In this document: one piece after another, positions 2,798 to 54,900 of the stretch
Numbering within the stretch: position 1 is the first letter of the stretch
How the letters are laid out: every line of letters begins with the position of its first letter
DNA from: Anas platyrhynchos
Lineage: Eukaryota; Chordata; Aves; Anseriformes; Anatidae
Length of the DNA stretch: 64,000 bases
Assembly: GCF_047663525.1 (NCBI RefSeq)
Contig: NC_092593.1
Coordinates: forward strand, 22,230,001-22,294,000
Direction: 5' to 3'
Program-made: the position numbers and the translations under genes
The notes under the pieces: model-generated
The model's input: the letters and a program-made list of their open reading frames with translations, nothing else
The model's database searches: none
What the model was told of the DNA's origin: nothing

Positions 2798-2929
2798 CTT
2801 CTGTGCTATAAGTGTGGCTACAACATCCCTTGCATATACATCAATTGTGCATATTGTCATGATGTTCTGATGATCACCAGGGGTGAGTTCCCCTAACAGC
2901 ATGTTTATAAGGGCATTCAGTTGAGCAAT
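2798..2929 (-). pseudogene. Dynein heavy chain relic exon just before AAA1, best preserved
   Basis: This 132-nt, 44-codon, phase 0-0 exon lies between ATTTTGCAG and AAG/GTAATTT. It reads [20 protein letters not shown], then IMTICTIDV and [16 protein letters not shown]9/11/17 carry near-identical sequence at the linker-AAA1 junction (LNxLIxxLLGEL, [28 protein letters not shown]). It is intact and spliceable, but positions nearly invariant in working outer-arm dyneins are changed: R to H and K to N in PGDRQK, H to Y in DVHARD, K to T in VVAKL. The following exons (AAA1 with its P-loop) were not found at 1-2797 and would lie further left. I call it pseudogene because its upstream partner exons are broken. 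Confidence 0.85.
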
Positions 2930-5900
2930 CTGCAAAATAATTATATTTCAATGGAGATATTACACTGTGGGGGAAAAAAAAAAAAAAAAAACCACTATTA
3001 TATGTCAAGTGCTAAATGGAGCAGTTATAGAACCAAGACACATTTATTGGTGCTTTTAATCAAAGCAAATAACTTTTGCAAACTAATAATGGTGTTGTTT
3101 TCTTACAATTTTAATTTGACTCTTTAATAACAAAAATACACTTTTCAGCTGGTGCCCAGAACTTAATCTCAGAACTGATAAATACTAGTCTGAAAGTGCA
3201 CTTGTACTGCATCCTCACAAGCATGCTAAAGCTACTAGATCTTTAAAGCATTACATGCATACTTAAGAATACCAGTTCCAAAATAGTCACAATGAAAGCC
3301 ACATTTACTACAGCAAATGCAGAGATAAAAACAACAACAACAAAAAAAAACACATTATTTGGAGCCTGATTGCAGAGACACAATGCCTGCTTTTTGTGTC
3401 AGAGGAGCAGGAAAAGCAGGTTAACCAAACCATCCAATGAATCCCTGAACAATCTCCTTCACCAGACTGCATTGTAGTCTGTAGTTCCCTATACTAATGG
3501 GAATGGTGACACTGGAAAGGTGTCCCAGAATGCCTGCTTTCATGGCACTGGAAACCGCAGGCAGTCCCTATGGATCAGTTTTATTCCCAAGGCATCCAGA
3601 CATCTTATTAGAAAAGTGACGCTTCTGAGTAATAACAGTAAAGATTTTTTTAATTATATTTTTGACTGGAACAGTCCTTCTAAAGTCTACTTGCTACTAA
3701 AATAACAAGCACAAATCTGCCTTTTATATATATAAACAGTTCTAAGACATACCTTTCTGACAGAGCCTTCCAAACATATCAAGACCATGATTTTGCAAAG
3801 CTGACTCATGCAGAATCCCAGCTTTGCCAGTGAAGGAAAGTTCACACTGACGCAAGAAACAGGACAAACACACATCCATAGTAGACAGAACAGCAGCAAA
3901 TGGACTAATTTTCTTAACCACTAAAATGTCACAGATTTGACATACAAAAAAGACTTGTCTTCTCCTAAAATTACTCTTATTTATTTATTTATGCAATTCT
4001 ACAGGAAGTTCACATATCTACTTGTGGTTACAGTCTTTCAGATGATTTCAAACCATTTCTCTGGACTCTCAAAGGAAACTTGAACATCCTCATCTCTGCA
4101 AAACTCAATATCCATCAAAACACTTAGGTTGAATTGTCAAATAAACACCGATTTTGTAGTTTATCCTATGTGATGCTGCAACTTCCATGATTTTCTTTTG
4201 CTGGAAAGTTACACAGAGTTTCTTCTAAATGCCTTAACCAATTTTCTATCCAATGCAAATACTATTTTCCTTAAAATCATAGAGATACAATTTATAGGAA
4301 AACCATTACAAAATGTTATGAACATCACAGACTTTGTATTGTTGCTTCTGAAGATCAGTCTTGCCAAACCTGCTTTCAAAAAAACAACACACAAATACCT
4401 TAAGCCTCTGCCAGCCAGATGGTAGCATTTCAGTGCCCCAGAGACAGACCAGCCTACATCCTATTTCCAGGCTTCAAGTTTGAGTTATTTACACTGTGGA
4501 AGTCCTCTATCTTGTCAAATACACCATGATCTCCTAGTGCTTACCTGCTTTCTTAATTAGCCTTGCAAAGCAGCCTGTGAAACTCACATCAATTTGCAAA
4601 GAACAGGATGAAAATCACTGGGTTTTGGTACGCTTGTCTTGAATCATTCCTCCCTCCCCAACCTCTGACTACAATTGTATAAAAGTTTATGAACCTGAGA
4701 GACAGAAATTGATTGAAGTTTCACCTCGACCGGAACTCAGATTCTCAAGGGAGAAAACAGCTACAAAACCAAAAAAGGGGTAAAATCCCTAAATTTTGCT
4801 TTCTCTCAGTACATTCACTACACAGGTAACACTTTGCAATATACAGCAGTGACCGGATTTATATATAGCCTGTGTTCCTTACCAGTATGAAAAGAATGAT
4901 TGTGGTGGCCTACATCCAAAGACACAGCAGTGGGTCACTGTTCATATTACTCAGTGATTGCATATAATTTGGCATCACTGAAACAATCGCAGCTCTGAAA
5001 AGGTTGAGCTCTGGGCTATTACGAAGACTAAATTAACCCTCATCACTTGAGTGAATGATCCATTCACGCCAAGGTCAAAATCACTAGCTGAGCAGCATGG
5101 CAAAGATGACTACAGCTGACTGACCTGCAGTTGTGTATGGATAAGACTTGAATCTTATTATGTTTTCAGACAACCTGAATTTTACTGAAAACATTAAATT
5201 AGCTATTTATTATGAAAAACAAAAAATCCAAAAGGTAAAGTCCAACCTATCCACCTTTTTCCCCTACTTTGCTACTTGGGTTCAGACAAAAGTACAAGAG
5301 CTGTGTGTTAGTGACTGACTGAAGTTGCTGGGGCAGGAGTCCAGGAGAAAAATGAGGTGAGACTTTTGTAGGTTTCCTCTCAGAATCTCTAAAACTCAGA
5401 CTACATATCAGATGCTTGAGCGCACTGTTGAGAAAGGAGAATAGGGAAGAAAAGAGGGCTATCAGGTGATTAAGAGAAATAGAGACTAGGCTCTCCCAAA
5501 GAATATAAAGTTCCTTTTGTGGAGAGGAAGGGCTTTCTTTATTATTCTTTCTTCTTTCCTCTTCTATCCCCAATTTCAAGTGAACAAATATAAAATCTCC
5601 ATGTGGTAGGATAACCCAATATTGTTTTTTTCTGAACAGCAAGTAATAGTTAAATAAGAAAACCTCCTGGATTTTTTGTTTGTTTGTTTTTGTTTTTTAA
5701 ATAGCCACCTGTAAATGTCAAAACTTTAAATTCCTCATTAATATTAATCTACACTTCCAGCTGCAGCGTCCTAAGTTAAGTTTTGATCCTCCATGGCTCA
5801 CATTTCTATGAAGCCTTTGTTTCAGATTGCACATCACTGTGTAATTGTGGAGCATCGTTATTATTGGTGTCACTGGCTGAACTACAGGAAGACAATGTGG

Positions 5901-8900
5901 TATGTCATGGGGTATATATTCCCAGAGACACGGGTCCCATTGTGGAAGAGTGGGAAATAAAAATTAATCACTCCACTTTCCTGTACAGGCTGTGGGGTAT
6001 CCACAGCATGAGCGGAGCTACCTGATCGCTGTGACCTCTGCCTCATTTAACTCCACAGTAATAACGTGGGCAAATCAGTTGCTATTTTTAATCCAACATC
6101 ATGTTCTGTCTCACTTTTCCCAACAGAAAGCTTACCTTAAGTGTCATTTTTTCCCCTGTAGAAATAATATTTGACTAATTGTTTTGATTTTCCAAACTTC
6201 CTGCTCCTCCCAGGAAGCAAGGCTGCATGTCAGGCCGCTGCAAAGCAATTCATCCTAAACCTCAGTACTCACTCCTAAATCTGGGTGGATTTGGTTACAT
6301 TGGCTCCTCACACTTACTAAGTTATTTCATTTCAAGTGTGTGAGGATACTTTAAATTAGAAAGACGAGTCTTTACATTCTGAGATAACTAACCTAGCTTT
6401 GACAAATTAGCTTCCATCATCTTTGCATACAAATACACTTGAGTGAGCCTCAGGGAGAGAGAGAAGGAATACTTCATACAACTGGTAAACAGTCCAGGGA
6501 TAATGGGATGGACAACAAAGACTTATATTTTCCTTCAAGATCCACTGGTTCTGGCTTTGACCTCAGGATTGGTGGAGCTTCTATTAGAAGCAACAGATAG
6601 TGTGGTCCAGACAGAGGGTCTATGTTTTCTAAAATTATTTGCCTCACACCTTTCTAATTCAGCAGAATATTAGGCAAGAAAATACACCGCTTATTAATCA
6701 GAACTGTTCTTCACAAAACATAGGGCTTTGAAAAGTATACATAATTGCCAGATTCATATTCTCATTAAATGTAAGCTCAGAAAAATTGTCAAATAACTTC
6801 ACTAGTTTGCAATCTATTGATAGCAATTGAAGAAAGCTGGAGTTAGAATAATTTTCATTTGGTTAAATATAAAAATTAAAGAACACAACAAAAAGTTTTC
6901 CTACTTTGAATGACTCCCCTTACAAATGATTTTTGATAAAGCTATCCCAAAGAAGAAGCAGGACCATGGAAGCAGAGCAAGATCTCCCAGATTCCAAATG
7001 TATTGCTGAGTCTTTCTGATAAATTCTGAGTAAGGAAATTTAATATAGCACTTCTTAGAAATGCACTTGGAAATATTACAGTTTTAATGTTAGAAGTATC
7101 CTTAGAAATATCACCATTGTAATGACAAATGAAACCACAACCAAACAGGATCATTACTCTACTTTCTATTACTGCAAACTTTCTATACAACCTTAATGTC
7201 TACACAAGTGTTTGAGATCACCAGAGAAAAGATACTGTAAAATTGAAAGTATTTTCATTGTTTTGAAGTCCTCTGTGTTTCCAAAGCGTGTATGAGCCTT
7301 AAGTACGGACGTGCAAAATGGCTCTAGGAACTGGAACAACTCTTATTTCACTGAAATAAGTTAAACTATTTCAGCACATATGCACAGCTGGCCAGTCTTC
7401 AAAATAAGAAGTTGCTTCTGTCTTTCTGTTTTAAGTCTGAAACGTGTATATAACAAAATCATTCTGTTGGTAAATGGTTCACCAGTAAGGACATATTTTT
7501 TCCAGATGAACTCATATTATTTTAAGCTACAGTATTGGCCATCTTTCAATTCTGCAAAACATTCTTGTTCTGTAAATTTTTAAGTATGAAGTTCCTTGAA
7601 AATTACACATTTTCTTGATAAGTTACTAAGGTTATTATCTACAGGATCTGAAACAAACTCATTGCACTGGTGACAAAAGAATTGTAATTAGAAATAGAGA
7701 ACCTGTTTCAAGAAAGGATAGTCCAAAGTTAAGAGCTCTGGCTCAAGACTTGAAAGATTCATTCTCTCACAAAAGTTCTGCAGGTGACCTTTGATAAGTC
7801 ACATAACCTCTTTTTGGTTCTTTGCTGTGAAACAGAGATAATAGCACATTCCTGTCCACAGGGTAAGTAAATATATTTCTTATGTTTATAAAGATTAAGA
7901 GATATCCAGATATACAGCAGGAAGGCTTTTCTTGCAGAAACCAAAATCTATAAAGAGTTTATGTAAAATTCAACACACAGCTTTTGTTCAAACACTTGGG
8001 GCTGAAAGAGAGTTGCATTTGAACAAAGTCATATGATAGACTCACATTCAGTATTCTCCCACAAGTAGATCTCAGCCATTGTATCTCCCCAGCAACTGGA
8101 AAGTGCTCTGACTATTGAGACATTCTTAAATTTTACTTTTGATGTTACCCCACACTGCATATAATATTTAAATACTTAAGCTGATCCTTATGCAATAAGT
8201 CAAAGAGAAAATTTCATCCTAAAGATGATTTAGTTTTAGCCCAATCTGCACCAATCTTTCTGTTTGTCTATGGCCACAGGTATCTTGGTGTGACAAAGCA
8301 AGAGAAAGATGATAAGAGAAACAAAAAGCTATACTGTATTAATTATTTTTATTATAAGGAGATTGAATTTATATTTAGGAAGACAAGAATTGCCTGTGGA
8401 TCTGGTCTGGAGACTTCTATGTAAAAAGAGTCTGTAGACAAAGAATCCTGAAGAAGCTGCATGCAACAGTACAAGAATCCACAATACATAAGCAGTGGTG
8501 AGTATATTATATATATTATACAATAAATGTTCATTCTGCACTTCTTCTTTGTGCTCAAAAGCACAAAGTCTACCTCATGAGCTATTGGCCTTGTCATTAG
8601 CGAAAGAAGTATCCCAGAATTTTTCTAGTACTTATAAATCACTGTGTTGAAGTCATCACTACACTGAATTCATCACCAAATTTTCACTGACCTCAACAGT
8701 TTCTGAATTCAGCAACACCAAGAACTATAGATAGGTATTGCATTTTTCTACCTATTGTATTAGGTATAAAAAAAGCAATCATTTGATCTATTTGGCCTTT
8801 TAGTTTCCAGATGATTCTCCACCTTATTTATGAGAACAGAGAAGCATGTCTATAATAAAACAATTGTGATAAAAACATATTTCAATGTATTTTATTAATA

Positions 8901-10641
8901 TAAGCAATTGCTTTGAAATCATCTTCAAATTTCAAAGCACTTTGCTGAGGAACATAATTATCCTGAACGTCAGAATAGAGGGAAATTGAACACAACATGA
9001 CGCACCAGCAACACAGCACTACAGCTGGTGAACAGAATTTAGGTTCCTAATCCCAGAAATGACCATGCAGTTCCATTCTTCTGCAAACTGGGGACATCCA
9101 CAGAGAAAAACTGGATTGTTTTCTAGTTGGACCAACGGTATTAAAAGCAAACCTAGCAACTGGTATTACCCTATATATATTACATTTAAAATGCATTAAA
9201 TTTTAGATCTATGCATATAAATTGCAATGTTTGTTTTCGGCTAGAGGTAGTAGAGCTACTGTAGACTAGTCATTACGATGCTGAGTTTCTGAAATTACTG
9301 AGACTAGATGATGGTGTCATTCTGTTGTTACTTAGACAAAAGGTGAAGATGCCATACAGACATAATGTAATGATATTGAATTTAGAATTTGTTTACAATT
9401 GAATACTTGAATTAGCACAAATATCCATCATTATGTTTTTAGGCTACCCAGAAAGAATGGAAAACAGATTAGCATGAAGCAGATTACTCTCCAAAACACT
9501 TTCTGCCCAAGAACAATTACCTAAATATATGTTATACTGCAATCCTTAAATTATGGTGATACCTGCTCACATATACAAATAATGATAAAAGCTGAAGTTG
9601 GACTTTTTCTTTCATCTACCCAGATTGCAAAGCCAGAACACAAACACTATTGTGTTCCTAACTGCTGGGTTCTGAGTTTTAAGGTTTAATTTCTTAAACT
9701 TCAAACATTTTCAGACTCTTAACCAATAATTCAAAAGCAACAGGCACATCCCAGGTACACAGTACTCTGACAGGTCTTAATTTCTTATGCAGCAGATAGA
9801 TTGCTGTGAACACAACAGCAGAAGGAATGAGGAAAAAGAAGGAAGCAGGCTGGTGAATGCATCTTGGAGATGGGCTTCTGAATCTCATGTGAAAGCCAGC
9901 TGGGTAATTTCCTGGTTACTGAAGAAAAACTGAATTCAGAAGGATATTTTCAGAAGTACTTTGAGATTTGGGAGTTCAATCCTGTAATACTTGTTTCCCC
10001 AATTTTTGAACTCCTTTGAGTTCAAAAACCCTCTAATGAAGGGAATTTAACAAGCTGCAGGCTCCTACATAATGCAGAGTACTCAGAACAGGAGAGATTA
10101 TTTCAAGTAGCAAAACACCGTTCATTAGGGAAATGATCACATTTGCAAATCTTCTGAGCTCCATCTCCATGTGTTCAACATTTATTTGTTTCTATGGAGT
10201 TTTCATCCAATCTTTAATACTTGTCTATAAAATTAAAAAAATAAACAAACAGCTTCTATAACATTCTAAGCAAAGCCTCAGGCAACTGAAAATTAAAGGA
10301 AGGTTTCAAACTCATCAGCAGGTGTATATTTATAAATATGTATGGTATACAAATGCAACAATATCAGTTTCAACATTTGAAACCTACTGATGCTGAAATT
10401 TGAGAGGATTTATATTCTTTGTTCTTAGTGCTAGAATTCTGTTTGTTATAGGGAAAGAATCCCTTCTTAAATTTCATGATTTTGATTTTTGTTTTGTTTT
10501 CAAAGTTTAGAACATGTTTCAAATGTATACATTTCCAAAACTATGAACCAGTTTATTTTCTATACAATACCTTTTCAGTAGCATTAACTGATGAGAAGGT
10601 TGAAAGTAGTAAGAAAGAAAATCAGGTTGAAAGTAGTAAGG
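2930..10641. other. AT-rich sequence within the dynein relic, mostly featureless
   Basis: Apart from the tentative relic at 4032-4095, no exon was recognised. A 131-codon minus-strand frame at 5247-5642 has no recognisable motif, signal peptide or splice support and looks like chance. Small A-rich and AAC-rich tracts lie near 2974 and 3330. Confidence 0.55.
4032..4095 (-). pseudogene. Possible dynein relic exon (YEEKPREQW region)
   Basis: After the acceptor GATATTGAGTTTTGCAG the minus strand reads DEDVQVSFESPEKWFEII and then an in-frame TGA. The family has A-V-V-T-Y-E-E-K-P-R-E-Q-W-L-F-D-Y about 45 residues before the exon at 2798-2929. FES-P-EKWF resembles this with small deletions. Order and distance fit. 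The match is short and the donor is weak (ACT/GTAACC). Confidence 0.25.
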
Positions 10642-15700: not shown

Positions 15701-18700
15701 GATGAGATCTTTTTGTATAGTTTCCATCTATATCTCTGTTTGTATTATAGCTCTTGCAAACCTAAGCAAGGTGAAACTCACAATGAAAACTTGAGGGCTT
15801 CATCTTGAAATCAGATAACCTTACTAAATTCCACATTCTTTCATATAACTATTACAAACATAAATATTTATGCAATATATATTAATACACACACAGAGAG
15901 AAGGCAGTAAGAGAAGGAAAGTAAAGCTTCTCTTCCAATTTCTTCATAGAATGTTTACCATTGAGGTTCAAAATTCCAGTTTTTCAAAAAGGTTGAGGAG
16001 GAAAAATAAGATTTGAAAATGATAATATCAGTAGAGAAAGATCATCAAACAGAATACTGTTTGCCCAGCATCTGTTTTTCTTTATTTTGTCTGCTTTTCA
16101 ATCATTTTTGCTTACATGTGCATAAATAATTTAGAATTGTACTTTAAAATACACTAATATTCAAATGAGAAAATAGAGGGCTTTTTAAAAGCATGCAGTA
16201 ACCACAAGAAAGTAAAAAGAAATTAAATGGAATAAAATTTCCAAGGCTCTTTTCCCCCTCTTATATCAACTATCTAAGGGGTCTCTAAATTTAGCTAAAT
16301 TAAACAATAATAAACATCTGAAACTCTCTATCCTTTTCTCTTTGGGGATGTTCTCTCTTTCCTTACATGAAGGTAAATAAAGAGAGGAGGCCTTACTTTT
16401 CAATGGACACTGTATGACACAGTCTTTAGAAAAATGACGTACTTCAGTTATCTATAGAATCAGTTATGCACACTTTAGAAAGATGTAGCTGGAAGCCATT
16501 TGCAGTTCAACCTGTAACTTCGCAACATCTCCATTAATTTGCACAGAGAAGTTTTGTTTTCCATCTTTCCACCTTGATACACACTGTGAGAACGTTTATG
16601 CTTTGTCCAGAAATTTATTGTCTTCACTCCACCTTTTCCATCTTTTTTGTCAGTAATCTTTGTCCTAGTGGGAAAGCTGGTAGGGGAGGTACCTCATCAT
16701 GTTTGAGGATCATGAAGGATCATTGTATGACCGTGAAGGATCACTGTATACTCCTAGAACAAAAGACAAACAACCTATACTGAAGTATTTGGTCAAAGGA
16801 GCAAGCTGGTTTTCCTTCCTGCAAGCACAAAATATTTCGATCACAAAAAGTAGTACATGACTTTTGCTGGAGACTCCTTCAGAGCCTTTACCATAGCTAT
16901 TTCCCTTCCACAGAAAGCGATGATGACCTGCAAATATGTTTCTGTGTCTATACAAAAATGTGAAATTTACTGTGCATATCTGACATAGATATAGCATATT
17001 AGGCAATCACAGAAAATTCCCTTCTAGTTGTTAGGAGAATCCAAGAGAGAGAAAGAGGCTAAAGGCTTGGCTGCAGGCTTGATGAAGCACCTTCATGTTA
17101 CAAGAACTGCATATCTAGCCCTCCCACTGAAGAAATATATGAAAGGATGCAGGGATAGATGGTCTTCATCATCCTTTGTCTGGTAGTTCCTTTTAGTACT
17201 TACAGAAGGTCTAAATGGTAATGCCAAATAGCAACAAGGAGAGAGCAGTACCCATAGCCTGCTAGTCACATGCTTGTTCAGTCTTACATTCCCATCTTAT
17301 GGTGGAGCGAGTCATCACTAGTCAGCTCCATAGGGTACATTTATGGCAAAAGGTTTCTCCTTCAAATGCAGAAACAGTGCCTGTGAACATCCCTTCCACT
17401 GAGTGTACCTGAAGTAGATTCGTTCCATATTCCAGATTCACCATCTTTTGTATAAGTAGCACCTGTATGTGTGTTTAACACAATGAAGGTAGAGGCTTCT
17501 AGAAGCCTGAAACAAGATCTGAACCACAGACACAAAAACAAGAGCAAACAAAAATAAAATAAAAACACCACAAACCATAAAAAATCAAAACAAATTAAAA
17601 AATACACACCACACTCAGTGTCCCATCTTCCCCTCTTTTGATGTTTTTAGCAGTCACTTAGCCCAGTATCTCCAAAACTTCCAGTGACAACTTGAAGGAC
17701 AAGAGGAAAACAGATAAAAACAGACTTCTAACATTGGTCTCAAGTCCATGATCAGCCTGCGGTTAGAATATACTTTAGAATAATTTCAATATTTCATCAC
17801 TAGCATTTTGAAAGAATACAGAAGGATTCTTCATTTAGGCTCTTGATCATGGCAGAGAAACAAATGCATTTTTCACTAATTCATATGTCGCTGACTTTCA
17901 GAGGAGACTTCTGAATCTTCCTCAAGGCAGAGGTCAGGAGAACAGACATCCAAAATCCAACATTCTCAGATGAGCTACTCTCTCTTTATATTTCAAGCAA
18001 TGAAAGACTTTTTGTTACGCTTTTTATTCTCACATTGCAGAACACTCAGGAATATACATCAGTAAATGTTTATTCAGTTTGTATTTTGACTATATACTGG
18101 GATTAGTGCTCCAAACTATTGACATTGATCAACACATAATTATTGTTCATAAACAATGGAAATTCTTAATTTATCCATATCCTGGAAAGGAATTTGAAGA
18201 TGAAACCTAAGAATGACTTTGTTTTTAAAAAAGCTATCCTGCTTAATCTGAAAGATACAGCATAATTATTGCATTAAGATTCATTAGAGATTAAGCAGGT
18301 AATCCACAGAGATTATTCCATAGTTTTTCTGTAGCTGCCATTTATTAAATGTTCCATCTCATGAACCATTAATTTATTATTATTATTTTTTTAAGTACTC
18401 TTTTATTTCCTTTAAATTTACCTAGAAGTTTATTAGGTTCAGTCTGTACAGCATACATTTAAAACATTCCCAGTGGAGAAGCATAACACATTTGAAATCT
18501 ATATTTGATCTGACAACAGCAGCACCATGTTTGAATTAGAAACAGATTAGACATAATTGAAGATAAAGAGGACACAAGCATCACTCCCATTTTGGTGGAA
18601 TGGGCTTTAAATTATCAGATTCATCCAGAATACATTACTGAGAAACATTGAATTGTTATCTTTAGACAGCCTTTTCTAAGAGTTTACAATTTCTCAGTTC

Positions 18701-20277
18701 AGTGAAGCTTGCCACCAGCTTGTTATCAGAACAAAAAACGAAAAATCATTTGGTTCAGAGCACAGAACTGATCTCACCTCCAAAAGTACACGTTTTCTTC
18801 TGATAACAGACACTTCATTGGACTGCAGAGGTAGCACTTCATGGTTACAGTGAAGTCAATCTTTTTAAGATTCTTCCACTTTTCAGGTAATTCCTAACAA
18901 CATTACAAGTAGATATTGTTTGTCATTTTGCAGAGCCAACGGCTCTCCCCACACAGAAACACACATACACATGCTTACATTCCCCACTCTTTTTTTTTTT
19001 TTTTTAAATCAGTAGTTGATTTTGTGACATTCTTTTGCCATGTCTTTTTGTGGTGACAAATGTGGACTCGTTGTCCAGGGTAATTTGCAAAATGCAATTT
19101 AGACAAAAGATTAAAGTTTAAAATTTCTGATATTTTCTAGTTAGAACATATTTATCTACATTAAATTTGGAAATAAACCTCAGCAATAAAAAGAACACCA
19201 CAGCAACACAACTCACTATAAAATAGTTTTGAGAAGCATGTTATTAATTTAAACCTCCCCTCAGAAAGAGTTCAAAAATGCACACAGTGATAACTGAATG
19301 TATTGGTAGGTCCTGATCTCAGTGTTAAATACTTTCAGAAACCTGCCTAGCTTTCAGCAGTCGCATACTTGGTCTCAGCCTGATCCTCCCAAAAGTCATA
19401 TTCCTTACCCAGCTTTTAGACGTCCCAAAGTCTCTACAAGAAATACATGTAGCTGACAAAATAGTCAGCAGTGAGTGCCATTGAATACAGACAAGGACTT
19501 GATGACAGCTTGCCTAATTAGACACTGTAGTTTAAAGGCCATCACACACAGATAAAGGTGTTTTTGTTGTCATTTTGGAAAACTTTTATAGGACTTTTGC
19601 AAACATTTGAGTTTACTTTGAATCTTAGTCTACATAATCCCACAATTCTGTGATACAGTTGAACTTCATTACCTCCTTGCAAGTCATATTGCTCAAAAAG
19701 GTTTCCTATCATTATTTGAAGCAAGTTTTGACACAGCTGACTAGAGGCTTAATAAACACAAGCAATCCTTTGATAATGCATTCATAAGTAAGAACACAAC
19801 GAAATATCTATCTATGAACTGTACTTTGAAAAGGATATTTCCATGGTAAACTTTACTTTTTAACTGCCTTAAGAGGAAAAAAAAAATACAATTTAAAAGT
19901 AAGGAAATTATTTGGAAAAAGTTCCCCATTTTCATATGCAATGTAAGTCTTTTACTTCCTGAAAATCATGCCAGGGGAAAACAAAACAAAACACCTACAC
20001 AAACACCGTTAGTCATTTGGATAAAATCAGGTTGAAAGCAAAGATCCGATTCATAGAGAACTAGTGTTTTACATATTAAAACCATCGAATTTTGTAATGG
20101 TGCCATTTGTACTGCTTTAACTTTTGGTCTGTCAACACTTCCCTAATTAAAGGTGTATTAGGGAGTATGGCTCAAATTTCAAGAAGATCACCTTCAATTT
20201 GCATGTACCATCTGAAACCATTCCTACACACGTGCAAACAGGCACATACACAACAGTGAACAGCAAGGGCTATCTGC

Positions 20278-21876: not shown

Positions 21877-22025
21877 CTCCAGATCTGCAGAAAATCCTTG
21901 CCTCCAAGTTCTGGTACCTACCATCCTGAAAAGATCTGAAAAGGTCAGTTTCAAGACTTTGAACACATCATCTTTGGAGTCCTGGTCTTCTGTGGCCATT
22001 AGATGTCCCATCATTTCACCTAAAG
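21877..22025 (-). pseudogene. Dynein heavy chain relic exon (EMMGHLMA)
   Basis: The minus strand has an AG acceptor at 22026-22027 and a strong GAG/GTAAGG donor. The 149-nt exon begins with two bases of a split codon, stays open and reads LGEMMGHLMATEDQ, then DDVFKVLKLTFSDLF, ending SADLE. DNAH9/11/17 have LVxxMGHLMAVKxRQxxTDxMFEPLKxTIELL...QLxE here. Spacing between MGHLMA, the D-x-F-x-x-LK block and the terminal L-E is close to normal, and the donor falls at the E codon. Several conserved residues are changed (K-x-R-Q to E-D-Q-D). The open frame alone does not show the exon is used. Confidence 0.75.
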
Positions 22026-26095: not shown

Positions 26096-26347
26096 CTGGA
26101 AAGAGTAATTTAGAGAATCAGTAACAGGGGTTTAGAATTGCTCTTCCCAGTGTGGATTTCTTATCCCAGCTAACTGATCAGTTGAGGAATAAAGGAACTC
26201 TCACTTTGATGAAGAAAAGCATTCCCATTATTTACAACATAATTACCTTTTCATTGTACTTGTAAAAATTACATCTGGAACTAATTACTGAAAACTCTTT
26301 TCCTTTAGAGTTAGATTTACATCAGCAAGTGCAAATACTTGAAAAGA

Positions 26348-31322: not shown

Positions 31323-32011
31323 AGGTACAAGTATGTACCTGCAGAACAGTAATACTACTAAAAACACTGCACAGCATAAAACAAAAGAAGCCCTTGGAAC
31401 TAGACTCCTTTGAAAATATGGCATATAACAGAGAAAATCGGTAGGTATAATCCAGAAAACAGGCAAAGAAAATTACTATGCTCCAGAGACTGTATATAAA
31501 ACTGTAGAGAAGACATAAAAATATAGAATGGAAAATACCTAATTAATTACTTAAAACTTTTGTCAAACACAAATTCAAATAAAACATAACTCATAAGTGG
31601 TAATAAATTGTATTAATTAATAAGAAAAGATAGTACTAAAATTAATAAATGGTAAAATTAAAATAAAACAAATTGTTAATAAAATAAAAATAATAATTGA
31701 AATAAAATTAATAAAAGAGAGGATATTCTCCCTATTTTTTGTCTTTGATTCACTTCATAGCAGGTAATTTCTGCTTCAAACACTGACGGAAGAACAGCAA
31801 AATTGGGGTAAAAGCTGGAACCGATGGCAAGCCTCTCCAGCAAATTACTAAATATATGCAAATCTGTAGAAAATTCTTTGAGCAATAACAAAAAGAACTG
31901 CTACTTAATTATAAACCATATTACTCTAAAACCTGATTTTTTTTTTCCCATGGAGATTGCTTTACAAATAATATTTTGTTAAAATTACTTACTATCTTTT
32001 TAATTGTTGTG

Positions 32012-34080: not shown

Positions 34081-37041
34081 CTGAGTTGTGTAAAAGCAAA
34101 AGCAATGTGGGTGGTAATGGCCCTATGTTTCTTCTGAAGTTTCCTACTATGTTTAAAATCTTAAGTATCAGAAGTGAATTGGACCTTGAAACTGCATCAC
34201 ATATCAGATAAAGTCCTATGTTTCGTTGTTCTTCATTTTATGGGACTAGTGAGTTATTTTGCCAAACTTACATGCTGGATAAAATAGAACTAGCTTCTCC
34301 TTGTGCTGGTAAAACTCACGACCTTCTGAAAGTATGCTGATCACTTTCCTCAGAATCACCCTTCTAACATGGAGAGAGTGCTTCCCATGTTCCTGTCAGC
34401 CATATTCTATCATCAACTTTCTTCCTCAACCTCAGAACACTGTCCATTTTCTATGTGATTTTTTTCCCCACCACAGTTCCCCCTTTGTTCCATCTCTTCT
34501 ACGTCACATGTGATACGTTTGTATGCGTATACAAACTCCTTCTCCTACCTCTTGATTTTATGATACATCTGCTTTTATGTTTGTTGTACTTCTTGGGATG
34601 TATTTCTACAGTGTTGATGGTAAACCTGTTCTGTCTCAGCAGGAGGCTGCTCCTTACAGCAATTATACCTGATGACTTCCTTTCCATTTTCCCTTCAGCT
34701 TCTCATGAAATTGTATTTTCTGAAACCCTGTGAATTCCCCCTTACATAACTCAATGTATTCAACCATCTCTTTTCCATCCAACTTGTTTTCCATCATCTT
34801 TTTCATTTTGCTAGATAGTTGGCTCATTTACTCATGTATTATCTACTCCACTACTTTATATTTTTGCCCACTATTTTGATTGCCATTTTCTTCAAGATTT
34901 CCAGGGTTTATTTGAGATCAAGGTACACAACTCCCACTGATTTTAATAACTCCCACTGACATTTATGTGAGTTTTGTGGCCAAATCCCCGGCAACTCAGA
35001 AAACACAGGGCCTGATGGCTATCATTTATACTTTGTACTTTCAACAGGAGTTTAGAATCCCTTTTTTTTAAAAAAAAGAATAACCCTTTTAAAGCTTTTT
35101 TCTGGTTTTGTGATCTGACATTACTCTGACTTTTAATAGCTGAGGGACAAAAGAAGACATTTTCTTGGAAGTTAGTCTTTGAGTTCTGCACATCCACGTT
35201 CAGAACAAATTAAGAAAGATTAGTAACTTCCCCTTGAGTCATGGCCAAATTTTACCCTTGCTTTTTATCATTGCAGTCTATAGTGGTCTTCTATGGCAGA
35301 TGAGCACACGTCTTGAATAATGAATGACTCTGCCATCAAAAATATGCAAATCTTGTTCTTCATTTCAATATTTGGACATATCAATTTCAATTTCCGAAAT
35401 CCTCTCTTCTAACTTGAGCTATTAATGATGCTAAGACAATTATCAAAGTCTACCAGACTGCCTATTGTTCATTCAGCAGAAACTCCTATTTTTTCTGGAA
35501 TGTCAAACTATTTCTGTAATTTTCACATATCAGTTCCTTATTCTTCCACAGAATTTGTGTATCTAAGTAGTATCCTTGGTGTGTACAGATAAAGGACAAG
35601 GAGACTTTGTCTGAGAAAGCAATATTTTCTAATAGATCATCTGATATAACTAAGAACAACAGGTGAGCCTTTAGGTTTAATCCCTTTATCTGTAGGTTAA
35701 TGCTGTATTATTTCCAACAAGACTACAATCTACTAGCAGACTTTGGCCACCTAAAAATGTCTTTTTCTTCCACTTTATTCCTGCATCTCCAAAAGCAGTT
35801 TCTCCAAACCTGAGTATTTTTGTACCTATGTTTCTTTCCAGAAATCAAACCATTTCTCACATAGCGGCAAGCGCTAGCGTGATTGCAGACAACAGTGTTT
35901 TGCTGCCCAGCAGTTTACAACATATGAACATTCGAAATACCTAGCACAAATGGGAACTTGATGTCTTTATTCAAGGCCGGACTGTGATTATCCTTTATAT
36001 GATTTCAACAGAAAAAAATAATGAAAGGATTTTACATCATAGTATAGGATGCTGAGAACAAAAGACCAAGGTGTTGGCAGGGCCCTGAGTCACCTATCCA
36101 GGAGCAGTGATGAAACTGGCCATGAAGAAAGAATTCAGATTCCAGAAAGTTCCAGGCACTTGGATGCACAAATGATTTTGCATCTCCTGTATCAGAGAGG
36201 TGACCCAAACAGTTTCTCTCATTGTGAGCAAACAGAATTATATCCACTATCTACCATTGCTTCTTAGACAAAAAAACTGTGATACCGGAGTCAGGGTCCC
36301 TATATATAAAGCAACTTTCAACCACAATGACTGATATAATACATGTCTTTAAAATACTGCAATATTGTTGTATAAACAGATTTTCAGCTATTCACATTGA
36401 TTTTCATTGAGAATGAGGGGATATATCTCATTTAGTCCATATTCTGCTGTTTTTCTTTTACCACTTCACAACGTTCCTTCACTCCGAGAAATTTACTCCA
36501 TGTGCAAGAAAGCTTTACTGTAAAAGTTGAGAATATTATGCAGCAGCAAAAGACTTGGGCACTGAAGAAGGAATATTTGCCAAAATTATGCATTTCCCAA
36601 CATTTTATGTTCAATTCCATGAAGGCTAAAAGTTGCATATACACCAAATATAACAACAAACAAAAGCTATACAGGTAGAAAAAAAAAAGGGGGGAAAAAA
36701 AATGCAGGACTGCAGGTGTGGAAAGATGTTGGCTGCAGCATAATTTATTTTCATTCTGCAACCCTTATTCATGCTATGTTGAATGTTAGCATCCAATCCT
36801 GAAAATTGCTCCAGGGAGCTAAGTTTTTATTGGAGGTTTGCCTGGAGCAGTTTTCAGGATCGGGGCCTGACTCATCAGGTGGTCCTACCAATATGAATTA
36901 CATTAGTTCAAAGCACAATTCTAATACAAATTAATCACAGCATGTACTCAAATATTTATCAAATGTTTCTTAACCTAGTAATTAGGTTAGCAACTCTCAG
37001 ACTATCGAATTTTAAGATACAAAATAGATTAAATGTTTTAC
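34081..37041. other. AT-rich sequence with hairpin, no gene recognised
   Basis: Holds the 36.80 kb hairpin and a short A/G homopolymer mix at 36.68 kb. Short frames on either strand have no recognisable product. Confidence 0.55.
36796..36860. other. Strong hairpin: 20-bp stem, 25-nt loop
   Basis: The arm at 36796-36815 (ATCCTGAAAATTGCTCCAGG) pairs with 36841-36860 (CCTGGAGCAGTTTTCAGGAT) at all 20 positions, with one G-T wobble in the + strand RNA. After one mismatch the stem gains about three more pairs. The flank CAGGATCGGGGCC resembles termini of old amniote MITE-type repeats that I remember, so it may be a DNA-transposon remnant. Size and loop would also suit a microRNA precursor. Unresolved. 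Confidence 0.7.
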
Positions 37042-37152
37042 CTTAAAATCGGATTCCAATCCTTCCGACTCCTGAAATGCAGGATTTAATATTGTTCCTA
37101 AGTGGTGATCATTCACCTGCCAAGTGAATCTCACATAGAGAGATTCCCACAT
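37042..37152 (-). pseudogene. Dynein heavy chain relic exon, tail (LGTI...GLES-FK)
   Basis: The minus strand reads HHLGTILNPAFQ and GLESDFK, ending in AAG followed by a GTAAAA donor. The DNAH9/11/17 tail has DRRLGTIxxxxFxxxxGLESxFK at this point. The core matches well, while the normally invariant D-R-R has become N-D-H-H with about two residues lost. Upstream the frame stays open to a TGA near 37.17 kb; the true acceptor is uncertain, so the high coordinate is approximate. The exon ends in phase 0. It sits between the N-terminal relic at 48.0 kb and the QADP relic at 26.0 kb, the expected order. Confidence 0.6.
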
Positions 37153-40955: not shown

Positions 40956-43900
40956 ATAAATCCAATGCTACAGGCTAATCAATTCTCAGATTAATTTGGA
41001 AACTAAGAGCCTAAAAATGAAGAACACTTTCCCCTCTCCAAACGTCGTTACTCAAATCTCCTCAAAACATCCAAAACATTTTTAACAAGTTCCATGCTTT
41101 TAGGAATCAAGTTACACATCTACAAAAACATGAATCAAGGTCAACAGTGCTTATCCAAAAAATACTGCTTCTCAAAAAAACACAAAACCTAATGTCACAA
41201 TCCAAGTCTATTTCATTTCCACATTTGGTCAGTAAGACAGTTTTCTGACCACATTTGTGTAATTAATATCGAATCTCATAAATACAAGAGTTCTCATCTC
41301 ACAGGAATTGACAGCAAAGTTGCTAGCTGAAGTTTGGAATTGGTCACACTTCTATTTATATCTAACACACACAACATGTTAAGGCTTCTTCCCCCCTTCT
41401 GTGTCATCCCCCCTCCCCATAGAAAAAGATCTGGTAAAGTACATCTGTTTCACAGTAAAAATAAGATATTAATACTACCCAGAAATTGAGCAGCTTCCCA
41501 GCCTTTGGGCAAACTTTGGTGAAGTACACTCTGGTTTACACTTGCTAATTCTGCCAGCTTCCTCTTATGCAATTTACATGAGAATATGTTCATTTCCATG
41601 TAAGTTATGTTGTGAGGTGTTTTCCAAACAGCTTTCCTGAGTAATAAACATCATCTGATTGTAAAGCTATACCCTGCACTACAAATAGGTTTTGAGTGTC
41701 TGTTTAACAAAGAAAGTACAGTAACCAAATGTTATAATTGAACAAAATGGAACCTGGATACAATTCCAGCAGGTTACACAGCATGCTGATCATTGGGAAA
41801 AATAAAGTCTTTCAAATAGTGTATTAGTAACCCACTAACTGGAACGCTGGAAAAAATAATGAACTGTATACTGCTTTTCATACTGAACACACTGATGTCC
41901 AAAAGAAGAGGAAGAACTTTCCTGTTACAGAATTTTACTCTGGTGCAGGAAATACACCTTCCAGAATTCCAGCTGGAAGGCAGAAAATAAATGGTATTTT
42001 CTCTTTTTCCTGGGAGAGCTCTTTAAATTATCAAGGTAGGGGCTCTGTAGGATGCCATTTAAGGTAGAAGTTGTATCAATCATACCTGCTTTTGGAGTGA
42101 AATTGTCCTCAGCTGCCTTGATTTCAGCCACTCATGGCTCTCCTTTTACCACTTCCCAACCATTCTTTCAGATTATCAGCACAGTTCAAAAGATGAACAT
42201 AGGCTGCATGCATGACTCCTGCAATTGAGAACAGGCTAAGCAAATGCAACATATTTATACTGCCAGGGCACCAGACAAGGGCCTTTGTATAAATGAAACA
42301 CAGGTCTTGAAGTTATGGCCTAAGGAAGACGTAAACAGTGCAAATGCCTCTGAGTTACCCTCCATGTGTATCATCAAACTACTGACCGAACTCCCAGCAT
42401 CTTGTCCCACCACTCACAGGATCCAGAGTTAACTCTGCTGCTGGCTGCCTGAGAGGACAGTTGTTCCAAACTCCTAGGCAAGAATCTGGAAGTGACTGAC
42501 ATAGAAACAGATCCCAAGAAACAAAGGTTCACTCTTCCAGCTGAATGGACGACAATCGCTTCTCAAAACTAGGACCACGGTAACATAAAACATTAATTGC
42601 CCAAAGAAAGAAAGAAAGAGCAGTGTTCTCCCTTAAGCATGGGAGTGCATACAATAGCAAACAAAAAGCAAAATATTCTGTGAGGATATTCTGGGATACA
42701 GAGAGTTAATTGTTCAACAAGAAATTCTATCACTGTTCAGAAATGATCTACGTAGTTGAGGCTATAATGTAATATGCTGCTTTTAAAGGAAGTTGTCAGT
42801 GTCTGATGGGTTTTTATTACAATTGCTCACTATAAAACGCACTATTTAATTACTGGCATGAAAGTGATTCTAGCATAAAGGAAGAAGGGGAAATGAGACC
42901 TCTCCACCTTTTTAACAGTTAATGCACTTGTGCACATAAAAATACAATGCTTTTTCATGTGTATTTTTAATGATGCATTGCATTTTCTTAGATCTATGGG
43001 ATATATTTTCTATGTTGATCCCCTTAGATATGATGCCATATCCAAAGCAATATACAATGACAATATATAATTGAAATAAATCTAAAATTGTTAAGATACT
43101 GGTCAAGAAGATATTAGTGATTTTGTGTGCAACTTAACAGTCCATTAAATGTCATGGCTAACTGCTCAGCTTCTAAAATAGATTATCTTTCCTAAGACAC
43201 TTCAAGTTGAACTCCTAAGATAAGACATCTATTTCCTAAATGATGAATTAATACTTCTGCAATACTGCGTATAATCTGGAACTTGACATTTTTTAACCAG
43301 CCAACCAAATTTCAAAACACCCATTCTGCAACAGTACACAGATACTGTAAATTAATTGTCAAAATAAACAAACTAACACAGAACATCATGACAGAAAATA
43401 AATGTCAGTTTTTCAACAAAGCAGAGCACAAGCCAGAGTTTCTGACAGTGTTTTTTGGTTTGCATCTTAAAATCTACAAACGGTAAGCGTACATGGCTAT
43501 TCAGTGTTTATATCCATTATCAAAGAAACAACTGAACATAACGTGGGTTGTCTTTACCCTGACTGCAAACTCTTGTACCAGGACAACCATATCTATTGGG
43601 AAAGCAGTATTATTTGGAAAGAGGCCAGATCAGACAGATGGCAGAGAAAAAGGGATCAGTGAAATATTCAGTGTTGAAAAGTTTCAGTAGCAATGTAACA
43701 TTTAAAGGACAAAGAAATTGGTCAGTATCTTGAGCTTATAATATTGCTAAAGACAAAGAAAGGTATGGCATTAAAAAAAAAAAACATTTTTCTAGATTAA
43801 AACCAATAAATATAATCACCTGTGTTTCTGAGAAAAAGATCTGAAATATTTACTAGAAAAATGGAAAAATTATCTTAAGGTATAATCAAAAATAATTTAC

Positions 43901-46232: not shown

Positions 46233-47883
46233 ATAGCTGATTGTCAGTATGGCTGAAATAGAGCTGTTACTCTCCCCACCCTTTTCTCACTCCGAATTCA
46301 TCTTGCATTAGATCTCCTGTCATAACCACAGTGGATAATATTGCCATCCTGCCCATCACTCAAACAGAACTGGGACATCATCTGTTCAGGGCCCTGCTAT
46401 CTTCAAATTCTTCCTTCAAACTCTCTTTTAGCAGTGTGCCAATTAAATGCACAGAAAACTGCTGTGCTACCTGACTGACACTGTCACTGGGTCCTTCTGC
46501 TTCCCTATCTCGATGCCCATCCGTCACCTCTCATCTCACAACTACACTGCAAGGTCTTGGGACCAGGGATGGCCTCATGTGTTTGTACAGCACCAACCAC
46601 AGCAAAGCCCGCTGCACCACTAGGATTTCTGCAGAGCAGAGAACAGCAAAGCATCACTGTGGTAAGAGCAGCTGCCTCTCTCAGCACAGCTATCCTTACT
46701 GCATCAGGGAGAAAAACCCCATCAGACCTTTCTTCCCACGTGTGTCTGCTTGCAGCTTCTCTTAACAAAACACTGTCTGCTTGACTTGGAGGCAGGCGCT
46801 CCAAGGGATACATCACTGTCTCACACTTTGTAGTCTGTCAAACACTCAACCCGCTCTTTTCCCTCATCAGAGAAATAATAAGGTAAACCTTTAAGAGATC
46901 CAGCAAACAAAAACAGTGTCAAAACAAGCATGGGCCAGATCCAGAGCCTTTTATATTTAAAGGAAATGCTAAATTTACTTTAATGGGCTTTGACAAAAGT
47001 CCGCTGTTATAAAGAAAAACAGGCTTTTGCTGAAATTGGTCGAGTCATCACAGTAAGAGGCAGAGCACTCTTCCAGTCCCACCACTGAGTTATTCAGCCA
47101 TTCCCAGCCACCTGCTGGCAGTTCACACTCCCTCTCAGGGCTGCCTTCCTGTAAACCTAACATATTCCAGCTGTTCTGTGGTCCCAGGCCTTAACCCTTG
47201 CCTCCCCTTACAGAGCTAAAGGACTTACTGTCTTCCTCTGCACCATCCCTTTTCCCCACACAACTTCGTGTCATGCTTTTCTTGCAGCTCTGTGAGGAGG
47301 CCTAAAAGAAAGTTGATCTGTTTAGATTGCAAAGAAAAACAGACTGTAAAGAAACAAATGATCTGTTCTGAATTTGAGTATTTTGCAATGATTTCATATT
47401 TTAATCCTAATTCTAACATGAAAAATGTGTCTTTAGCACTGTCTTCTCTGTTTTATACCTTAGAGAACAATTAGTTTTTAAGTCCTAAAACACCAATTTT
47501 ATTTGTACACATATATATATATACACATTTCCCTAGCCTTGTTTGATAGGAAAATTGCACCTTGGTATATTTACAATATGATTTTGTAGCAGATGCAACC
47601 TTAGTACTGTTGCCATTTGTTACTGGTCATCATGAGAACAAAGTCAAGAAAAAAACTCTACAGTTTTTTGTCATGAAAAGAAGAAAAAACTTCTTTTACT
47701 AACCCAAACAAAAAAGTATCATGAGAATTTCATATGCATCTTGTCAACTGCTTCTGACCCCAGACACCGTGGTTTATGCAGACTGTGAGTACTTACCCTT
47801 CAGCTCTGTCCATTGTTCCCACCTATAAGAGGAAGGATAAATCAGTATTTGCTGCCATGAACTTCTCAAGAAGTTTACTTTAC
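46233..47883. other. Moderately GC-rich sequence, no secure gene
   Basis: Overlapping short frames at 46.50-46.82 kb on both strands are not recognisable. A 73-nt segment at 47229-47301 (minus) has strong acceptor and donor signals but its phase does not fit the adjacent dynein relic. Confidence 0.5.
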
Positions 47884-48028
47884 AGCTTTGCAATATACTT
47901 TTTCACATCCTCAGACACTGCTGGTGGCCAGCCATCATAACTGTTTGGGCTGGAAAGAACATCAGTAGCATCTATCAATAAGTCATATGCAGGGAAATAA
48001 TTGAGGTTCTCAAATGTGAAACTGAGAG
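47884..48028 (-). pseudogene. Dynein heavy chain relic exon, N-terminal tail
   Basis: Between a minus-strand acceptor (CTCCCCCTGCCAG, ending at 48029) and a GTAAAG donor at 47878-47883 lies a 145-nt open segment. It reads FENLNYFPAYDLLIDATDVL and, a little further, WPPAVSEDVKKYIAK. In DNAH9/11/17 the N-terminal tail has YGDLSYSPLDQL.. followed by WPxxVSxDxxxHxxxL; the L-x-Y-x-P spacing and the WP..VS.D motif line up, with a few residues missing between them. It is the most N-terminal of the better-supported relics, as expected from its position nearest SP3. The frame runs through, but its phase relative to neighbours could not be verified. Confidence 0.55.
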
Positions 48029-49007
48029 CTGGCAGGGGGAGAATGCACTTCCAGAAGGAATCTCTCACAATAAGAGGTCTACAATGAGCACACAGAGACC
48101 AAGATAACATGATAACACACATTTAACACCCGCCTCACATTGCAACTGTTCACATTTGACAAGTTTGTTGATATTCTCTCTGTTCTGTCTGTTTTATGAC
48201 AGGACACATGCAGTACATATTACAAAGTCATTAGCTGATATACCTTATTGCAAGACTGTCAAATTCCTACACACAGAAATACTGAGGGCTGAAAGTAAGA
48301 TACTTGTGAATAAGTATGAATGGTGGTCACTAAACATACTAACAAGGAGAATAAAGCACAACTGGGACTACATGTGAAATTCATTCACATTTTGAATGTT
48401 ACTTGTATAAAGTGATATATATCTACATGCTTGATCTTTACAAATAGTTTTTAAGTTTTATTACTTCAAAGGGCATCAGGAGCTGACAGCATTGAAAGTA
48501 ATTAGAGCACAACATATCCACAGAAAGCATTTTGATAGATAGATATAGAAAAACAGGCATACGATGGATTACCCTTAATGCAGGAATTGTTTCAAATATA
48601 ATTCAGAATTCTGCAATTGAATTTAGAAAGAAGCAATGAAAACTACGGGTAATCCTATGCCAATCACAAAAGAATCCAGCGGATGAGAAATATTCTCTAC
48701 AGAGCCCAAATCCACAGGCTCTTCCCCGCCCATAATGAAGCTAATCAATGAGATATAGGATCTGATTTGGATATTTATTTTTAGATCAAGTATAAATTTA
48801 TCCTGGGTTCCTTTTACCTTCTGTAATTTGGGATATTTAGATCCTGCCTCTTAAGCTTTCTATATTGTGAGACCCTTTGAAACTTTTCCCTACGATATGA
48901 GCACATTGTGAAAGGAAGGTTTGTACTGCCTACCAACCCAGATGATAACTGACATTCAATACAGCTAAGATGACAGCTGCATGGGTTTTTGGTATATGCT
49001 TTATTTG

Positions 49008-49045: not shown

Positions 49046-49047
<2 letters not shown>

Positions 49048-50439: not shown

Positions 50440-50476
50440 CTTATACAAGGAACTGAAAATCAGTTCCTTGTATAAG
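50440..50476. other. Perfect 17-bp inverted repeat with 3-nt loop
   Basis: CTTATACAAGGAACTGA at 50440-50456, loop AAA, then its exact reverse complement at 50460-50476. Allowing one bulged base, three more pairs form. The loop is too small for a normal microRNA precursor. A template-switch mutation or a small palindrome is more likely. Confidence 0.9.
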
Positions 50477-51910: not shown

Positions 51911-54900
51911 CTGAATTGACAGATCACAAACTGCTGACAAACATAGAAACAAACAAACAAAAAAAAAAACGCTAGAAAACTTTTGGTCTCTGTGGTCTTT
52001 TCCAGTCTTTGCTGCTTCAACTGTTTGTTAGATTAAGCACAGGTTAAAGTATACTCGAAAGGAAATGTCATTTTAAATTGCAGGGATCACTAATACATAC
52101 CTAACAGTGCACTTGAAAAACAAATCACATTATGCATGCACACACCAGTCTTTAAGCATTCAAGCTACAAACTGTTTACGTTTGAAGTGTCAAACGTGCG
52201 TGGGTTTTTTATAATTACATGATTTTATTATTATTTTTAAAATTTATTGTAATATTTTACACCTATTTACACGCTCTAACTCTGAAATCTATGATTTTTA
52301 CAGTATCCGGTGCTGAATTTCAAAACTAGCCTGTTTCTAAACTATGGAAAAAGTCATGAACGCTAGGAGACAACTTACAGCCCTTGCTCAAAATTATAAA
52401 GGTGTTTCACTTACTCATTTTGTAGTGTAACACTGAACTAAGCTTTACCGTGGAAATACATTACTATTGTTATAAATGTAGATGTAAACCTTACTTGTAC
52501 CAGTCCAGGACAAAAGGTCCAACGTACCACCAGCGTAACAAGCTCATAGAGTCTCTAAAACTACACGTATTTCACAGAGATGGAAGAAAACATCTGAAGG
52601 TGAAAAAAAAAAAATGAAGAAAAAGCAGCCTCCTGGGGAACACGTAGTCCATTTCATCATGATAGAAAAACACCCTCAATAACCTGAGCCTCAAACTCCC
52701 TTGAGGAGCCAGTTTCCATCCACCCTTCATCAATCCTCACACTTCCTATATAGCAAAGGTCAAATGATCCACACCTGGCAGTTTTCACTTAACAAGGGTG
52801 GAACCAAGAGACCTTGTGGATCAGGCTCATCCACCTGGCTTCAATGTTTTAAGGCCAATTGTTCCTTATCACTAATAGAAATAACCTGACAAGGGGCTTA
52901 GTGGTTAGAGATGACCTAATTAATTAACTACAAAAGGTGCACAAGGGTCATATTTCTGTTAGTCATCCTGTGAGGAAAATTAGTACAGACCCTGTCAAAA
53001 TAAATACAAATAAATACAAATAAACAAAATAAAATTAACAGCAAAATTGCTATCACTGATTTTCATCTGTCTAGTTACAACAGATAAAGAATATAGCAAT
53101 CAGAATTACTTTTCTTGACATTAATGTTATTTAAATTTGTTTTTCTGAGATCTATTCTTTATGCAGGGCTTCTCAAAATCTAGCCCCAAAGACCTCTGAC
53201 TACACTATTTACTTTGGCTGTGTATAAACTATCATGTATAAATACCAGGATCCAGATCCTCACTCACTATTCAGGTCAAGGACTTGGTTGAAAGTTTTGG
53301 CTTTAATTTGGTTACATGCCTACATTGCTATTTTCTGGCAGGTCAGAAGATTGGCTGGCTTGGGGGAGCTTATGTAGGCATGGCTTTTAGGCTGCAACCA
53401 AAGTGTTTCTCTAGATCTGGAAGTTTGAAGGTGGTTGCAGTCTCCAAGCTCAGATACAACCACATATTAGCCTGGTGCAACTGATTTTTGTTTTCCTTGC
53501 ACTAGCTGTTCCTTCACCTTCTCTTCAGATAGAAGGACACGCGTCTCTTTCATGCTCCTTCATTAGTAAACAAACCAGGAGAGATTAAAGCCTCTTTCTT
53601 CAAGTCACTAAGATACCTGCCTTTGGTTTTAGTGAGAATTCAAGCCCTAACAACTGAAGAGAAAAGCATATCTTTCTACTTTGTCAGCTACTGGCAGACT
53701 TAGGAAAAAAAAAAAAAAAGTTGTTAAAAAGTAATGTTTTTAGTAATGTATTTCACCAAATATGTAATATTTAGTAGTAACCAGACAACAAATGAAATGG
53801 AAAATGAAACAGTAGAAGGTACTTGCATGGCCTTACTTTACATGGCAATTGACAACAACCACAATCTGCAATGATTTATAAGTGCCTTACTCCATTCACC
53901 ATTGAGACAGAAAAATGGGAATCCCATATTATTTAAAGGGAGTGCAATCCCTCTCAAAATAGGAGAGTCTAGGATACGTTACTGAGTACTGAAACTCTTA
54001 AGACTAGGCAACACCAAACTCAACTGAGAAGGGAGAATGAGTCTCTGGGTCTTCATGTAACAGATCGGTTCACAGAAAGAATCCCCCAGGATCCTTCAAG
54101 AAAGGAAACTCAGATTTTAGCCCTAAGCAACTATTTTTAGAGACAGTCTGAGAACTGGTTCTTTTTAACCCAGGGCCCATTTCAGCATCTTCAAAGCTAA
54201 AGGAATGGTTGACTGCTCTGTTGAATTGTGTTCCACACAGAAAAAACTCATGTTTCTATTAACATAAAGAGCTTACTGTCTTGCTTCTGTCCTAAAGATA
54301 AGTTTGGGATTTAAATGTACCCCGTCCAGGATGAACACCTACCTTTACTTTGTGGGGCTTATAATCTGCGTAAGAGATTTGTAACTTCAACCTTCATAAT
54401 GTCTCCTCTAGATGAAGGGAGGAGGTTGCAGATGTATAAAATGGCAAGACAATTTCCAAAAATATATTGCATTGCCCCAAAAGTACTTTAATGTATTCCT
54501 GCCAGTGCAAAAACTCCTTTGCAAACCACAGCAGATTAGACATCAGGGAAAAAGTGTGGAACGCATTGTTTAACATTTGTCTTCATCCTTCCAACTTTGT
54601 GAGCCAGTCAAGCTGAGATGACAGCTTGAGATCCCAACCGTGGCTTAGGATATGCTGTGCACCATAGAACTTCCTCCTCATAAGCCACCTTGTTTAGGAA
54701 TTACATACTCTGGGGCCACCTCACTTTTAAAGTTCTTTGAAAATGTTCCTAGTGTTATGTGTTAAGTCACACTGCCTTAATCCAGAACTTTTTCAGCCAC
54801 TGTTACTCTCCCAACAGAGTGGTTCCAAAAAGTGTTTATCAATATGGAGATCTGGGACAGATCTTACCTCCTTAACAAAGGCAAAACACATTTTTGCAAT

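Follow-up and report, generated by a model that had tools for sequence, protein, structure and literature searches.

Unitary pseudogenes such as primate GULO have intact orthologues elsewhere, and DNAH11 is a human ciliary disease gene. The classical mouse laterality mutation iv lies in DNAH11, the left-right dynein, and in chameleon Dnah11 is undetected at left-right patterning and found later in ear and kidney (PMC10126504). For zebrafish embryonic stages, another study places dnah9l in the otic vesicle only and dnah11 in Kupffer's vesicle (PMC6008050). The window that we analysed, a stretch of 64,000 nucleotides from Anas platyrhynchos (contig NC_092593.1, called C7 below, positions 22,230,001 to 22,294,000), holds remains of a dynein gene that is closest to dnah9l along its whole length and falls into the same clade, but the bird copy, unlike dnah9l elsewhere, is broken throughout. 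Its product would have been the same kind of beta heavy chain as DNAH11, which also lies near a CDCA7-type gene, but DNAH11 is found on another chromosome and in a separate clade. As in unitary pseudogenes of the GULO type, decay has taken place on the spot with introns kept and neighbours present; unlike in that type, the ohnolog, DNAH11, has decayed too, apparently later. With a probability of about 0.93, we consider the fossil to be an unprocessed, in-place (unitary-type) dnah9l pseudogene and the HOXD-side ohnolog of DNAH11, in an order presumed to be SP3(-), dnah9l(-), CDCA7(+) that mirrors DNAH11(-), CDCA7L(+). The dnah9l family, named dnah9l in fishes and 'DNAH11-like' in lizards, amphibians and sharks, is already known, as are unitary pseudogenes; no report of a bird loss of dnah9l or DNAH11 turned up in searches of an open-licence library, which omits most subscription papers, and the lack of dnah9l may already be implicit in orthology databases.

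An earlier note on this DNA had recognised five dynein remnants, at 48.0, 37.1, 26.0, 21.9 and 2.9 kb of the window, as tail segments of an outer-arm heavy chain extending up to 52 kb. We searched the window together with the 200 kb to its left (C7:22,030,001-22,294,000, 264 kb of an assembly of 1.26 Gb in 42 contigs) by tblastn with dynein relatives, taking protein coordinates from Rhinophrynus dnah9l (P0004). All five remnants were recovered on the minus strand and in N-to-C order, with best E-values of 6.3e-4, 1.0e-6, 8.5e-29, 1.0e-7 and 1.5e-17, respectively, when 21 of 122 proteins served as queries against the 264-kb region. They belong to one minus-strand chain of 43 distinct segments that extends from window position 47,960 to a point 143 kb outside its left edge and spans dynein residues 135-4495 in order. 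The de-duplicated chain comprises 2461 aligned residues (1473 identical) with 42 stops and 72 frameshifts, the share of the window being 15 segments and 877 residues (491 identical) with 18 stops and 26 frameshifts; if overlapping segments are counted twice, the totals become 2714 residues, 43 stops and 77 frameshifts. The chain ends near C7:22,086,820 with a match to the last residues of the protein, albeit a weak one (E 0.39, against 2.6e-5 for the preceding segment at -139 kb). Thus, the remnants lie where they had been placed, but the fossil continues far to the left of the window, and the stretch from 48.0 to 52 kb holds one weak off-chain match only (48,665-48,832). The remnant at 2.9 kb, moreover, corresponds to residues 1735-1795 in the linker/AAA1 part and not to the tail.

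Several searches bear on which dynein this was. While Pfam gave no dynein match for three single remnants, the 26.0-kb remnant matches DNAH9 in PDB (8j07, E 1.8e-11), and a search of 5.8 billion proteins with it yields, at E 1e-3 or better, 10 relatives, which comprise lizard proteins named 'DNAH11-like' (that of Pogona among them), a 'dynein heavy 9 like' of coelacanth, and proteins of frog, lungfish, sturgeon and sawshark. A second search with residues 150-1150 of protein P0001 matched 1614 proteins, and the best 120 of these belong, by name, to squamates (Pogona, Phrynocephalus, Sceloporus, Varanus, Lacerta), amphibians, bony fishes and cartilaginous fishes; three of them (P0022, P0105, P0122) are DNAH11 according to an identity comparison that took in 35 of 193 proteins. 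No bird, crocodile, turtle, snake or mammal appears among the best 120 of the 1614, the candidates being at least ~2130 residues long. Had any of these groups a copy that covers the region, it should rank ahead of the listed sharks, unless shorter than ~2130 residues. A third search, with an exon of the dynein on contig C2 discussed below, yielded 78 proteins of 85 candidates, most of them named DNAH11 and drawn from all tetrapod groups. Long predicted dnah9l proteins are found in lizards, amphibians, lungfish, coelacanth, gar and sharks, long predicted DNAH11 proteins in crocodile, turtles, squamates, mammals and amphibians, and five species (Pogona, Pleurodeles, Protopterus, Pristiophorus and Callorhinchus) have both.

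When 12 references of each kind compete for the segments of the fossil, dnah9l beats DNAH11 in 41 of 43. The fossil is 51-59% identical to dnah9l, 42-47% to DNAH11, 37% to DNAH9 (459 columns) and 32% to DNAH17 (524 columns), the rows for DNAH9, DNAH17 and Chlamydomonas being partial stretches from PDB matches. By comparison, Pogona dnah9l shares 64-69% identity with 17 of the 18 rows for DNAH11 and 61% with the stork model. A tree of 19 rows (LG+G4) places the fossil within the tetrapod dnah9l set at 100/100, with lizard dnah9l as its sister at 89/86, and forcing it to join DNAH11 costs 112 log units and is rejected by the approximately unbiased (AU) test (p 7e-11). Judged by its sequence, then, the fossil is the orthologue of dnah9l ('DNAH11-like'), an outer-arm beta-type axonemal dynein heavy chain, and a fossil of DNAH11 itself is ruled out by the segment contest and the AU test. 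It does not group with unrelated dyneins, and with the tree rooted on Chlamydomonas beta the dnah9l and DNAH11 clades are sisters at 83/81, as the earlier note had predicted for any intact copy.

The fossil is an unprocessed pseudogene that has kept its introns and whose lesions go beyond method error. Kilobase gaps separate segments whose protein positions adjoin, and splice-like AG or GT is present at several segment ends, which rules out a processed copy. A still intact gene was considered too, as two remnants first looked open, but many broken segments followed. Exons of two dynein loci on contig C19 (L004-L006, three of eight listed loci), which we take to be DNAH9 and DNAH17, served as a lesion control: aligned by the same program to references of ~50% identity, they gave 11 segments and 736 residues with no stop and one frameshift. 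Of 52 Pfam dynein matches genome-wide, the 12 on C19 are all without stops.

Several observations nevertheless speak against the dnah9l pseudogene or blur its outline. The columns of the fossil used for identities and trees were set by alignment to dnah9l references, which favours dnah9l, a bias from which the segment contest is free. Because the fossil combines a long branch (0.7) with an odd composition, its exact place among tetrapods is unsure, and a clade of fossil and amphibian dnah9l is not rejected (AU p 0.16). The sister relationship of dnah9l and DNAH11 has a support of only 83/81, falling to 70/56 with the tail alone, and neither of the alternatives, in which dnah9l or DNAH11 pairs with DNAH9/17, is rejected (p 0.10 and 0.13). 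Moreover, two of the 43 segments tie between dnah9l and DNAH11, four are free of lesions, and invariant-site retention is too variable between segments for a single neutral rate (chi-square 133.6, 38 degrees of freedom). This unevenness may come from intronic sequence caught in the weak segments, or from constraint that later acted on a few exons.

Could the fossil instead derive from DNAH11, DNAH9 or DNAH17, by duplication or as a processed copy, and not be the ohnolog beside SP3? The motors of these paralogues are alike, the scores at 2.9 kb are 84.3 versus 81.6 bits, and the two ties fit such a copy, but DNAH11 is favoured in none of the 43 segments, the forced grouping with DNAH11 is rejected, and segments kilobases apart with splice-like ends lie between an SP-family and a CDCA7-type neighbour; we regard such a copy as very improbable, with DNAH9 and DNAH17 having been compared over partial stretches. 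Equally little weight goes to continued expression of the gene, with the well-kept motor exons giving a shortened or rescued product. The exons at 2.9 kb and at offsets of -41, -48.8, -105 and -122.8 kb are 82-91% identical to references, and the uneven retention of invariant sites would suit persisting expression, but 114 stops and frameshifts are scattered over the whole chain and the -48.8 and -105 kb segments themselves carry a frameshift. Chance resemblance or an assembly artefact can be dismissed for the chain as a whole, although single remnants such as that at 48.0 kb are weak taken alone, because 47 of 49 minus-strand matches of at least 29.5 bits are collinear, against one match on the plus strand, one in the reversed sequence and at most four per strand in 20 Markov-resampled sequences (longest chain, three), and at the two C19 loci neither assembly nor method makes such lesions.

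The neighbourhood fits a dnah9l gene that died in place. At 62399-62761 (-) the window holds the last coding exon of an SP-family gene in an open frame, encoding the third zinc finger and the C-terminus; it matches zf-C2H2 in Pfam and all 29 residues of Sp1 finger 3 (1sp1_A, E 8.9e-13), and we take it to be SP3 and not SP4. Exons of the CDCA7 family occur at exactly two loci, C7:22,080,400-22,081,283 (+) and C2:126,573,313-126,574,049 (+), presumably CDCA7 and CDCA7L as the two 4CXXC-family genes. The one on C7 lies 5.5 kb past the last, weak segment of the fossil and 9 kb past the last strong one. On C2, a minus-strand dynein has its N-terminal match at C2:126,692,756 and was traced through its exons down to C2:126,643,165, 69 kb from the CDCA7-type gene. 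Each chromosome thus carries a dynein (-) beside a CDCA7-type gene (+), preceded on C7 by the SP-family gene (-); we assume C7 to be the HOXD side and C2 the HOXA side. In addition, a sturgeon model (P0008, Acipenser sinensis) has SP-family zinc fingers, presumably SP3-like, fused in frame to the N-terminus of dnah9l, probably a gene-model chimera of same-strand neighbours. The Pleurodeles model P0013 carries an additional stretch (residues 86-637) that was considered as a neighbour gene as well, but this has no Pfam match and looks by eye like a retroelement open reading frame. The pairing of dynein and CDCA7-type gene on both chromosomes, together with the sturgeon fusion, is the block expected from genome duplication. 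These findings support the first interpretation, a lost ohnolog of DNAH11 that died in place: a same-strand dynein had been proposed between SP3 and CDCA7, and a chain of broken segments with introns kept is what is found at this original locus.

The DNAH11 gene of C2, assigned as such by the tree, in which it groups with the stork DNAH11 model (Shimodaira-Hasegawa-like approximate likelihood ratio test, SH-aLRT, 100), is broken in this bird over the part read. In C2:126637001-126697000 (loci L038, L037, L036, L035, L034 and L029), alignment to long crocodile, turtle, lizard and orangutan DNAH11 proteins gave 34 segments with 1870 aligned residues, 1147 of them identical, 17 stops and 28 frameshifts. 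These 60 kb correspond to reference residues ~175-2940 of 4470, the C-terminal third lying outside, and one segment that is out of order, probably by chance, is included in the totals but dropped from densities and tree. Other birds point in the same direction. The five bird DNAH11 models among the 78 proteins (Spheniscus, Ciconia, Phoenicopterus, Chlamydotis and Theristicus) are all labelled LOW QUALITY PROTEIN, as against one of the 73 others, among which UniRef-only rows bear no such label; the label denotes models mended for stops or shifts. Over the aligned part, the five are 61-73% identical to crocodile DNAH11, compared to 84% for turtle, 78% for lizard and 74% for orangutan, and Ciconia keeps 1771 of 1977 DNAH11-invariant residues (90%), compared to 2010 of 2075 (97%) for a left-out crocodile. 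From these labels and the lower identity and retention, decay of DNAH11 seems to be under way in several orders of birds.

The C7 fossil is the more decayed of the two duck genes. It has 0.0171 stops and 0.029 frameshifts per codon, compared to 0.0093 and 0.015 in the C2 relic, and keeps 774 of 1167 invariant residues (66%) compared to 547 of 768 (71%). As the three measures agree, dnah9l appears to have died before DNAH11. Set against simulation, stop density translates into ~0.19 substitutions per site in the fossil and 0.08 in the C2 relic, whereas invariant-site retention gives ~0.20 and 0.165, so that the two estimates disagree for the C2 relic, and detection favours well-kept pieces. It is possible to envisage the following course of events. 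Selection on dnah9l would have been lost, a long period of neutral mutation would have followed (~0.2 substitutions per site), and today neither dnah9l nor DNAH11 would yield a full dynein. The former role of dnah9l was likely to power motile cilia such as those of the ear, by analogy with expression in zebrafish and chameleon, and outer arms are now probably served by DNAH9 and DNAH17, whose presumed loci on C19 are open in the exons sampled. Loss of the left-right use may have relaxed selection on these dyneins, but this is not the whole cause, since lizards, turtles and crocodile keep DNAH11. It is appealing to propose, at odds that we put only slightly above even, that birds lost both SP3/SP4-linked outer-arm dyneins, dnah9l early and DNAH11 later, and run their cilia on DNAH9 and DNAH17 alone, as a trace of an abandoned ciliated left-right organizer. 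With the remains on C7, a synteny prediction has become a documented fossil, with a relative order for two outer-arm dynein losses. With both ohnologs apparently dead in one line, it becomes testable whether freedom from left-right use released these motors and how other motile cilia manage without DNAH11.

Within the window, all segments of the fossil lie on the minus strand and are given here with their P0004 residues. Between the SP-family gene and the fossil lies a 250-base purine-rich tandem array of AAAGA/AGAA units (57360-57609). The 48.0-kb remnant (47865-47960, residues 135-166) has 17 of 32 residues identical and one stop, and an overlapping open frame ends at 48122. It is followed by 43567-43735 (293-352; 32/55 identical, one stop, three frameshifts), the 37.1-kb remnant at 36940-37137 (499-568; 31/65, two stops, three frameshifts), which below ~37030 is probably intron, 31736-31861 (534-578; 25/42, no stop or frameshift), 29352-29473 (579-619; 29/40, one stop, two frameshifts) and 26628-26767 (749-797; 23/46, two stops, two frameshifts). 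Between segments, at 26810-27034 (-), stands an open frame similar to the C-terminal region of a LINE (long interspersed nuclear element), presumably of CR1 type. The longest tail segment, the 26.0-kb remnant at 25785-26098 (850-956), is identical to Pogona in 70 of 104 residues, with one stop and one frameshift. Next come 23403-23664 (963-1047; 39/83, three stops, three frameshifts) and the 21.9-kb remnant at 21877-22119 (1099-1176; 36/78, three stops, two frameshifts), which has gtaagg after its end, and 18772-18893 (1177-1217; 35/40, one frameshift), which has ag before its start. The latter, like the segments at offsets -48824, -105012 and -122845, keeps 93-100% of dnah9l-invariant residues, compared to the average of 66%, perhaps only because weak segments include intron. 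The weak match at 18146-18262 (1211-1253; 18/39, no lesions) overlaps the previous segment in the protein and may be due to chance. Beyond 10126-10236 (1294-1330; 26/37, two stops) there are two further weak segments, 6704-6941 (1569-1657; 34/77, five frameshifts), probably in part a chance alignment, and 4006-4246 (1659-1739; 33/78, one stop, four frameshifts). The 2.9-kb remnant (2750-2932, 1735-1795) comprises an exon at ~2798-2932, with AG before it and GT after it, that is identical to Pogona in 42 of 46 residues; the single stop in the longer alignment falls beyond the GT and is probably intronic.

The eight other dynein loci fetched from this genome include no dnah9l-like one (best identity 56% over 25 residues to P0004 and 42% to P0001). 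Apart from these eight, the same N-terminal dynein matches, with identical scores and stop counts, occur in mirrored orientation at C3:36250918-36267443 and C34:545972-562497, and several of them hold stops; this repeat is either a recent duplication or a duplicated piece of the assembly.

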